DNA of 64,000 nucleotides from an uncultured Flavobacteriaceae bacterium (GTDB lineage Bacteria; Bacteroidota; Bacteroidia; Flavobacteriales; Flavobacteriaceae). Below the pieces are notes generated by a model, which was not told the origin of the DNA, made no database searches, and saw only the letters and a list, made by a program, of their open reading frames with translations. This document shows, one piece after another, positions 26,390 to 30,571 of the stretch. The stretch's first letter is position 1. Every line of letters begins with the position of its first letter. The stretch is from assembly GCA_943788095.1 (NCBI GenBank), contig CALSOZ010000006.1, forward strand, positions 45,559 through 109,558. The letters are read 5' to 3'. Made by a program: the position numbers and the translations under genes.

Positions 26390-26845
26390 AGGTGTGTTAT
26401 GTCATGAAAAATAGAACTCTAAATATAAAACTATTTAGGCGTTTGAAGCCTGAAAAATAATTTTAATTATGAACAAAATTATCTAGGGATTTTAAAAATA
26501 GAGCTATTCATGAAATTTTGTTTTTAATTCAATCTTGTTTCGTTATATAAGTCATAAGTTAAACACTATCAATTATTTATGTTAAAATCTGTATTTTTTT
26601 TGGGAATTTCAAATATCTTTTATAGGTTTATGTGGTTTTAGCCCCCAAGTCTGAATCTTCATAAAAACCATTTGACCAAAAGCAAGAACAGGAAGGACTA
26701 AAAATGACCGCTCTTTGCGAGATTTCTTTATTTTATAAATGGGACTCTCACCAGCGAAGCTCTGTTTGGTTTATAAAAAAATGGAAGTTTAAGAGTTAGA
26801 TAAATTGAATGAAAACTATACTAATAAGGCCGCATAATTTGAGAA

Positions 26846-27969
26846 ATGAATCCATTATTATGGTTCAGTTTCCTTTTGACAAGGAGCTTACTTGGCTGTG
26901 TCAAAACAATTGAAAATACTCGCTGGAGTCAGACCTTAAGCTCATGGTATGTGAAAAAGAAAGATTTTGATTTACATCGTGTTTTTAATGTCTTTAAAAG
27001 CATCGCCTATGTGGATTACTCGGCGCTTAAAACTACAAAAGACCGCACTCTGCCCAAAGAACGTATTAAACGAAAAGTCATACGCTGAGACGCCGATCCC
27101 CAACAGCCTATATTGAGCATTTAAGACTGAAGCGGTATAGCGAAAACACGATTAAGTCCTATGTCTCCGAATTTAAAAAATTTAGTTCCTATTATATTCC
27201 GAACGTAATTTAGAAACAATCTTGACTAAAGATGATATCGAGGGTTACCTACTAGTATCTTATCCAAAAGCAGAAAGTATCTGCTTCATCACAGAACCAA
27301 GCCATTAATGCTATTAAATTTTATTACGAAAAAGTATTGCAGCAGCCCAAAATGGTTTTTAACATTGAACGCCCTAGGAAAGCGAAGTTACTTCCTAAAG
27401 TACTTTCAAAGGAAGAAGTGTTTGCTATTATATCCACAATTAAAAACCTAAAACACCGCTGTATTATTTCACTAATTTATTCTGCTGGATTGAGAAGAAG
27501 TGAATTACTGAATTTAAAAATCATTGATCTCGACTCTTCTAGAAACCTGATTTTGATTCGAGGTGGTAAAGGAAATAAAGACCGTCAAAGCATTATTTCT
27601 AAGGAATTATTTAAACATCTAAGAGAATACTACAAAAAATACAAGCCAAAAACTTGGCTTTTTGAAGGAGCAAATGGAGGACAATATAGTCCGTCAAGTA
27701 TAGCGAAAGTACTATCGAAAGCGAGCAAAATAGCAGGAATACGAAGAAAGATTACTCCTCATATGCTTCGACACAGTTTTGCAACTCACCTTTTAGAGCA
27801 AGGGGTGAGTTTCAGACATATTCAAACACTTTTAGGGCATGGTAGCTCCAAAACAACGGAGATATACACACAGGTGTCTACGCAAGAAATTGGGAACATA
27901 AAGAATCCTTTAGATGGGTTTTATAAATATTCGAGTGACACAAAATATAAAGGAAATAAACACCACTAG
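26846..27969 (+). CDS. Tyrosine recombinase/integrase with N-terminal extension; C-terminal 210 aa intact, N-terminal part carries several apparent frameshifts
   Basis: Catalytic motifs GLRRSEL, GGKGNKDRQ, HMLRHSFATHLLEQG, LLGHGSSKTTEIYTQ; N-terminal pieces RWSQTLSSWYVKKKDFDLHRVFNVFKSIAYVDYSALK, YIEHLRLKRYSENTIKSYVSEFKKF and ERNLETILTKDDIEGYL lie in different frames. Confidence 0.88.
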
Positions 27970-27985
27970 TGGTTTATATACAGTA

Positions 27986-27995
27986 GTTGTGTGTA
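27986..27995 (+). other. attI-like / first cassette boundary
   Basis: GTTGTGTGTA 17 nt after the recombinase stop; exact reverse complement of TACACACAAC at 28417-28426. Confidence 0.55.
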
Positions 27996-28045
27996 ATTTA
28001 ACGCAACCAAATCGGAATTTGAACATCTAATAAAAAAATAGAATT

Positions 28046-28411
28046 ATGAAAAATTTAAAAATAATCGCATTACTCTTTTTAGTCGGAATTTACTTTTCTT
28101 GTAATAATGACGACGACAATATCACTCAAACTTTAAGTGGAATTTATTCGGAAACTTCACCTGTAAGTGGACGTTCTCAATTGAATTTTATAAACGGAAA
28201 TACAGTTGTTAAATCAGAACCTGACAACTCAACCGAAGACGAATTTACTTATGAGTTAATCGGAAACGTGATTAGATTAACACCGACTTTGGACAATTCT
28301 ACAACTCAAGAATTTGAAATTGAAATTATGACTAACTCGAAATTTGAGATTGAAAACCTTTATCCAAGTGTAGGAATAAATCCAACTACTTATATGACTT
28401 TTGAAAAATAA
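28046..28411 (+). CDS. Small lipoprotein (lipocalin-like) in cassette 1
   Basis: MKNLKIIALLFLVGIYFSCNNDDDN lipobox. Confidence 0.75.
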   Translation: MKNLKIIALLFLVGIYFSCNNDDDNITQTLSGIYSETSPVSGRSQLNFINGNTVVKSEPDNSTEDEFTYELIGNVIRLTPTLDNSTTQEFEIEIMTNSKFEIENLYPSVGINPTTYMTFEK

Positions 28412-28416
28412 AAAAC

Positions 28417-28550
28417 TACACACAACACCGTGTAAAATTAATTGCTGGTTTTAGCCAATTTACGAAAGTCCTCTCGGACTTTCTATCTGTGATTTATTTG
28501 CTAACTTTATTGCTTAAAACACGCAACTAATCTTACACAAACACGTTGTG
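28417..28550 (+). repeat. attC-like recombination site (long imperfect palindrome)
   Basis: CACAAC..GTTGTG outer arms; GTGTAAAATTAATTGC (28430-28445) against GCAACTAATCTTACAC (28523-28538), 14/16; apical GAAAGTCC-TCTC-GGACTTTC (28464-28483). Confidence 0.7.
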
Positions 28551-28909
28551 AATAATAGTTGTTTTTTGTATCTTGTAGACACCTCAAAATCAACACCTAT
28601 GCATCATATCGATCAAGAAATTGATAGATTCCAACTCTCCATGATGGATTTAGAATCTATGGTAGATCAAAACTCTTACGCACGTTTGGTAGATCTGTTT
28701 GTCCAAAGTCTTCCTCTTGAAAAATCAAGAACCTTATTGAATCTATCCGCACAAATCAAGGCATTTGTAGTCGATTTAAAGGACTATTTTGAAAGAGAAA
28801 TTATACAATTACAGTACTTTTTTGAAAGAAAACAACGGCTTAAAAGTGCTGTAAATCGTTATAATATATTAATATTTAACTGAAATGGGGCTTATTGCGA
28901 AGTCTCCCG
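28546..28909 (+). repeat. 364-bp duplicated unit, copy 1
   Basis: Near-identical to 30208-30571; identity starts after G at G|TT and ends at the next GTT. Confidence 0.9.
28599..28883 (+). CDS. Hypothetical protein, copy 1
   Basis: MHHIDQEIDRFQLSMMDLESMVDQNSYARLVDLFVQSLPLEK...; the first ~40 aa weakly resemble a transposase N-terminal (DUF772-like) region. Confidence 0.55.
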   Translation: MHHIDQEIDRFQLSMMDLESMVDQNSYARLVDLFVQSLPLEKSRTLLNLSAQIKAFVVDLKDYFEREIIQLQYFFERKQRLKSAVNRYNILIFN

Positions 28910-29489: not shown

Positions 29490-30140
29490 ATCAAAAAATT
29501 ACTTACTATAATCTTGTGCTTGTTCTTCTTTTCAATTTATGCACAAAACTACTATTATAATGGTAGTGAAAAAGTAGAAATCTATGAATCTAAAAATTCC
29601 TTTATTTCCTTTGACAACCCTGCTCAAACATTCCTAAAAGAGTTTAAAGATGTTAAAACATTTTCATCAAAAGGGTTTACAATCCTCGAAGACGGAAAAA
29701 CTGATATTTCAGTAAGAAAGTTAAGAGATAAAAAGTTAAATCAAACCATCCCTGCATTGCTATTGGACTCCAATAGTAATTTTAAAATGTTTTCCACAAA
29801 AACCATTCGTATAAAATTAAAGACTAATCATAATAACGATAATGTTTCAAAACTTTTAAAAAATGATGATATTATAGAAACTAAAGAAAAATATGGAATT
29901 TTGCGAGTAAAAGTAAAGAATATTCATAAAGTTTTGGAAATTGCTAATAAAATTTACGAGTCAGGTATCGCAGAATTTTCAATTCCAGACTTTTATATTC
30001 CAATGGAGTTGAACCAAATAGATGACCCTTTGTTTCCTTTTCAGTTTCAAATGCATAATACTGGACAGGTAATAGATGGAGTAGCAGGAAATTCCTACGG
30101 AATTTCCAACTTGGTGTGTACTTGCGAAGTTAAGTACTAA
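29490..30140 (+). pseudogene. Truncated N-terminal part of S8 (subtilisin-like) secreted peptidase fused to a recombination-site half
   Basis: IKKLLTIILCLFFFSIYAQNYYYNGSEKVEI ... DDPLFPFQFQMHNTGQVIDGVAG and then unrelated sequence; the frame opens at ATC, with no ATG. Confidence 0.65.
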
Positions 30141-30170
30141 ACCACGCAACTACTCATACACGAGACCGTC
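30080..30170 (+). repeat. 3' half of a second attC-like site
   Basis: Apical hairpin GGAAATTCC-TAC-GGAATTTCC followed by GCAACTACTCATACAC (30146-30161, 14/16 identical to 28523-28538) and GAGACCGTC with the same 6-nt spacing to the GT. Confidence 0.55.
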
Positions 30171-30207: not shown

Positions 30208-30571
30208 TTGTGAATAATAGTTGTTTTTTGTATCTTGTAGACACCTCAAAATCAACACCTATGCATCCTATCGATCAAGAAATTGATAGATTCCAACTCT
30301 CCATGATGGATTTAGAATCTATGGTAGATCAAAACTCTTATGCACGTTTGGTAGATCTGTTTGTCCAAAGTCTTCCTCTTGAAAAATCAAGAACCTTATT
30401 GAATCTATCGGCACAAATCAAGGCATTTGTAGTCGATTTAAAGGACTATTTTGAAAGAGAAATTATACAATTACAGTACTTTTTTGAAAGAAAACAACGG
30501 CTTAGAAGTACTGTAAATCGTTATAATATATTAATCTTTAACTGAAATGGGGGGTATTGCGAAGTCTCCCG
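30208..30571 (+). repeat. 364-bp duplicated unit, copy 2
   Basis: Same length and near-identical to 28546-28909. Confidence 0.9.
30261..30545 (+). CDS. Hypothetical protein, copy 2
   Basis: MHPIDQEIDRFQLSMMDLESMVDQ...; differs from copy 1 at a few residues (H/P, K/R, A/T). Confidence 0.55.
   Translation: MHPIDQEIDRFQLSMMDLESMVDQNSYARLVDLFVQSLPLEKSRTLLNLSAQIKAFVVDLKDYFEREIIQLQYFFERKQRLRSTVNRYNILIFN

Follow-up and report, generated by a model that had tools for sequence, protein, structure and literature searches.

The window analysed here, a 64,000-nucleotide stretch belonging to a 1.74-Mb flavobacterial-type MAG, contains an imperfect palindrome at positions 28417-28550, directly behind a gene for a putative lipoprotein. 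The initial annotation had read this palindrome as attC-like, which raises the question of whether it is an integron attC site, and which enzyme would act on it. Every element described for it, the outer arms, the 16-bp arms and the apical hairpin, could be located in the sequence, and the palindrome does begin just after the stop of the lipoprotein ORF (Table 1). The 16-bp arms contain exactly two mismatches, A28436:C28532 and A28441:C28527; as had been proposed, both are A:C when read on the top strand and become G.T on the bottom one. Folding of both DNA strands gave -17.6 kcal/mol (z -3.5) for the top and -22.8 kcal/mol (z -5.1) for the bottom strand, bearing out the claim that the bottom strand folds better, and 0 of 200 shuffles folded as well on either strand. 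A phage origin of the palindrome was considered and rejected, as phages gave no match.

Table 1. Positions of the integrase relic, attI, the cassette and attC elements in the window
Feature	Position	Strand	Remarks
Degraded integrase gene (tyrosine recombinase, no I2)	26812..27969	+	match G000:C6:72370-73503 with 3 TGA, 2 TAG, 4 TAA
attI	27943..27989	+	AAATATAAAGGAAATAAACACCACTAGTGGTTTATATACAGTA^GTTG; inverted repeat ahead of GTT
Gene cassette	27986..28545	+	attI GTT to G of next GTT
Cassette ORF, 121-aa putative lipoprotein	28046..28411	+	only a sub-threshold match, BSAP-5i immunity protein
R'' end of attC	28417..28426	+	TACACACAAC; exact complement of own cassette start
Outer arms	28421-28426 / 28545-28550	+	CACAAC / GTTGTG
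L'' arm	28430..28445	+	GTGTAAAATTAATTGC; A28436 and A28441 opposite C; G.T on bottom strand
Apical hairpin	28464..28483	+	GAAAGTCC-TCTC-GGACTTTC; variable terminal structure
L' arm	28523..28538	+	GCAACTAATCTTACAC; pairs with 28430-28445
R' box	28545..28551	+	GTTGTGA; putative crossover G^TT
Second attC, truncated, 3' half only	30087..30169	+	Persicobacter-type sequence; ends GT|CAG

The integrase relic and the first cassette

A gene of the tyrosine recombinase family lies upstream of the cassette. Its catalytic part is open (27337-27969), and frameshifts and stop codons break its N-terminal half. Because of these interruptions we read the gene as a pseudogene, assembly errors being less likely. 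With its integrase decayed, the attC copy in the window is probably inactive in cis, and the cassette would be either a relic or dependent on an enzyme supplied in trans.

The attI stretch (about 45 bp) recurs in the same genome on contig C4 behind another upstream flank, followed by a different cassette with an attC 81% identical to that of the window. This copy of attI and its cassette (locus L002, about 2221-2290) have no integrase upstream. Analogous sites follow integrases in other genomes, and in loci L014, L015, L016, L017, L018, L045 and L046 a conserved inverted repeat, ATAAAC(A/G)C..G(T/C)GTTTAT, directly precedes the attI GTT. This repeat is probably a double-stranded core site of the integrase.

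Two further observations concern DNA downstream of the cassette. An ORF at 29514-30140, apparently a truncated subtilisin-like protease, runs directly into the second attC half. In addition, a 300-bp direct repeat (99% identity) links 28546-28845 with 30208-30507; the homology begins exactly at the TT of the attC GTT, and the other copy is flanked by unrelated TTTTTT. The arrangement resembles an attC fused at its G^TT to a copied genomic sequence, through off-target insertion or cassette genesis.

Complementarity of attC to its own cassette start

When an integron cassette is circularised, crossover at G^TT lets the R'' end of attC pair with the start of that same cassette. In the window the cassette start GTTGTGTGTA at 27986, sixteen bases past the integrase stop, is the exact reverse complement of TACACACAAC (28417-28426). 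The start of the next cassette, GTTGTGAATA, differs from GTTGTGTGTA and so is not the partner of R''. As judged from its sequence, this complementarity is the G^TT signature of integrons.

The same organisation was found across Bacteroidota. Units follow the order integrase, attI, cassettes, all in the same orientation. By sequence, a cassette extends from the TT of its first GTT up to the G of the following GTT, and its 3' side is formed by a long imperfect palindrome with a 5' edge complementary to that cassette's own start. To quantify this rule we detected sites, heuristically, by their inner stem only, and compared each R'' with the previous R' (its own start) and with the R' of the same site. 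R'' matched its own start at 6/7 positions or better in 129 of 237 consecutive pairs, against 12 of 237 for the same-site R' and 0 of 16 in simulated sequence; the first set of loci had given 49 versus 4 (188 pairs).

An uninterrupted example is plasmid pPP2 of Persicobacter psychrovividus. It encodes an intact, unannotated I2-less integrase of about 376 aa, followed by an attI ending AACAAGTTGTTCCC and then by 130 sites over 100.6 kb, with genes nearly all on the same strand. Among these 130 sites R'' agreed with the own start in 92 cases and with the same-site R' in 9. Near-identical cassettes occur at distant positions of the plasmid, and 44 of the 51 duplicated segments of at least 400 bp end no more than 5 nt from a GTT, compared with 1.4% of random points.

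The link between integrase and first cassette recurred at other loci. Of 83 I2-less integrase loci whose downstream DNA was long enough, 30, the window among them, had an exact 10-mer cassette match no more than 160 bp from the integrase stop; such a match was seen in 6 of 415 random segments and in none of 12 alphaproteobacterial relatives. Decay, short contigs or the strictness of the test account for the 53 of 83 loci at which an exact match to the first cassette was absent. The integrase and attI directly upstream, the own-start rule, the 100-kb arrays and the duplications ending at GTT together support the attC reading, and we conclude that the hairpin at 28417-28550 has the sequence of a genuine attC cassette recombination site.

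Strand asymmetry and covariation of the stems

Across the 118 sites that could be aligned, the only departure from Watson-Crick pairing in the arms is a left A opposite a right C, and 96 of these sites have two A:C pairs at a spacing of exactly 5 nt. Oppositions over 127 sites comprised 333 A:C and 68 G:T. Since A:C oppositions become G.T wobbles on the bottom strand, that strand folds better: it did so in 116 of 127 sites (p 3e-18), a set with many related copies, 88 of them from one plasmid. The same preference held for 34 of 39 sites from outside Persicobacter and for 64 of 66 sites of the window type, the top strand being the more stable in a few cases. We considered that the wobble signature might be a selection artefact, and rejected this: the detector scores A:C -3 and G:T +0.5 on the top strand and therefore works against the signature.

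The arms covary, with a score of 0.236 compared with 0.094 for shuffled alignments and 0 of 500 shuffles reaching it. Among 26 window-type sites the two wobble pairs were kept in 24 and 25, and two-sided changes occurred at nine of the 16 stem pairs, so that the compensatory changes for which homologous sites were to be checked are present in number. The middle of the site was too variable for a covariance model. Window-type attC sites, up to 96% identical, were present in 25 of 396 Bacteroidota genomes from several families, a spread which suggests that cassettes travel between genera. Read by eye, the attC sites of Arundinibacter roseus (L053) form a subtype with two A:C pairs 3 nt apart, not 5.

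A recombinase family lacking I2 and its relation to known systems

The I2 helix of integron integrases docks extrahelical attC bases, and I2 has been held necessary for cassette capture and found in no other protein (PMC7790495). The integrases linked to the Bacteroidota sites miss about 40 residues, the I2 segment, when aligned to V. cholerae IntI (2a3v). Their KGxKDR and HxLRH motifs are 64-66 residues apart (70 in one, L057), compared with 107-108 in the three true IntI measured; by this spacing the missing segment, which holds I2, is about 42 residues long. The TIGR02249 score of a Bacteroidota integrase was 199.6 bits, against a cut-off of 265 and 441.9 for a true IntI, and in the tree five IntI form a separate clade (support 100/100). 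At their N terminus the Bacteroidota proteins also have a further domain, about 100 residues long. An AlphaFold model (pLDDT 81.5, pTM 0.52) is consistent with a beta hairpin that leads to the next helix with no additional one in between. Of the Bacteroidota sampled, 103 of 396 genomes and 66 of 172 genera have a member of the family, not all of them with arrays.

We therefore asked how such a system relates to canonical integrons (IntI1, the V. cholerae superintegron and its VCR attC sites). Shared features are an attI adjoining the integrase gene, the R''-L''-L'-R' palindrome with an unpaired central spacer and variable end, own-start complementarity and the G^TT boundary by sequence, co-oriented cassette arrays, and in the integrase a SAM-like N-terminal domain (PF13495) and a C-terminal SPLD-like motif. 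As a canonical control we analysed Vibrio sp. HDW18 by a similar procedure, the true-IntI loci L119, L122 and L123 having yielded no usable canonical arrays. The own-start rule held in HDW18. On the left arm of its sites a C, an A and another A are unpaired, and we take these to be the known extrahelical bases; the Bacteroidota attC has two A:C mismatches, spaced 5 nt, in place of bulges on the R''-L'' arm. In this small comparison the bottom strand of HDW18 sites was better folded in only 4 of 12, and showed no bias, while in the Bacteroidota attC it is thermodynamically favoured. The main determinant of strand choice in canonical integrons is the first extrahelical base (PMC2727003). Gene order differs as well: the canonical integrase is divergent from its cassettes, with a Pc promoter, but the Bacteroidota integrase lies upstream and co-oriented, making cassette expression by read-through from the integrase gene possible. 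In the inverse integrons of Treponema denticola, cassettes likewise lie at the 3' end of the integrase gene, although the T. denticola enzyme is an I2-type IntI. By sequence comparison, then, the Bacteroidota system is integron-like in its predicted working, yet lacks the I2 segment and the extrahelical bases of canonical integrons. The attC reading of the initial annotation is thus supported, with the amendment that this is not a canonical integron, because the enzyme family has no IntI I2.

The reading we favour, and hold with considerable confidence, is one of integrase-attI-cassette units in which an I2-less recombinase acts at G^TT on a folded bottom-strand attC, the window copy being a relic or dependent on an enzyme in trans. 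The recombinase would cut at G^TT and so excise or insert cassettes, its substrate being the attC bottom strand folded into a hairpin. The two conserved G.T positions would stabilise and mark that strand, and the mark would keep insertions in one orientation.

Ordinary double-stranded recombination by a Xer-like enzyme at an L'-R' core, with the palindrome as a duplicated or inverted core site, would suit an I2-less integrase whose nearest solved relatives, by PDB sequence and fold, are archaeal XerA proteins, and which reaches the cut-off of the XerA-type NCBIfam (NF040815). The attI inverted repeat also resembles a double-stranded core site. We nevertheless consider this unlikely, as the arms covary, sites of 130 nt are retained, and the strand asymmetry is conserved; under double-strand use, selection would not favour A:C pairs confined to one strand. 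The dif systems of XerA, XerC and XerD have neither cassettes nor palindromic attC arrays. A point of resemblance is the hairpin single strand used by CTXphi, an element that exploits Xer (PMC7790495).

It is very improbable that these are canonical attC sites served in trans by an I2-type IntI. The R''-L''-L'-R' layout and the G^TT rule are shared with the canonical Vibrio sites, but ten genomes with such sites, searched with an IntI query, gave only split matches and no I2-type IntI; the arrays start at I2-less integrases, and A:C mismatches take the place of bulged bases. Least probable of all is a transcription terminator or intergenic RNA element: the hairpin directly follows a stop codon, but neither an intrinsic terminator (a GC-rich stem followed by a U-tract) nor an Rfam match was found at the palindrome, the more stable strand is the bottom one, and such an element would not explain the own-start rule or cassette duplications ending at GTT. 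Termination could still be a side function of attC.

Returning to the favoured reading, folded bottom-strand recombination by an I2-less enzyme, we regard the chances as evenly balanced that it represents an integron of a second, independent kind within Bacteroidota, with strand choice set by two G.T wobbles 5 bp apart and not by bulges read by I2. A full-text literature search, which took in neither preprints nor most subscription papers, found no description of such Bacteroidota arrays. In the 2022 IntegronFinder 2.0 survey, Bacteroidetes proper contributed a single complete integron, that of Salinibacter ruber, and otherwise only In0 elements (PMC9024848). The kind is widespread and apparently undescribed. 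If I2-less enzymes do run cassette arrays, integron-like gene capture would be far more widespread, detection by the I2 domain, the standard approach, would miss these systems, and the origin of folded-strand recombination would become directly testable with natural enzymes.

I2-less recombinases were also observed within ORFs of about 700 aa in Anaerophaga (L095) and Bacteroidetes GWF2_41_31 (L098). The sites in L098, where the integrase is more distant, follow the own-start rule in 4 of 4 pairs.
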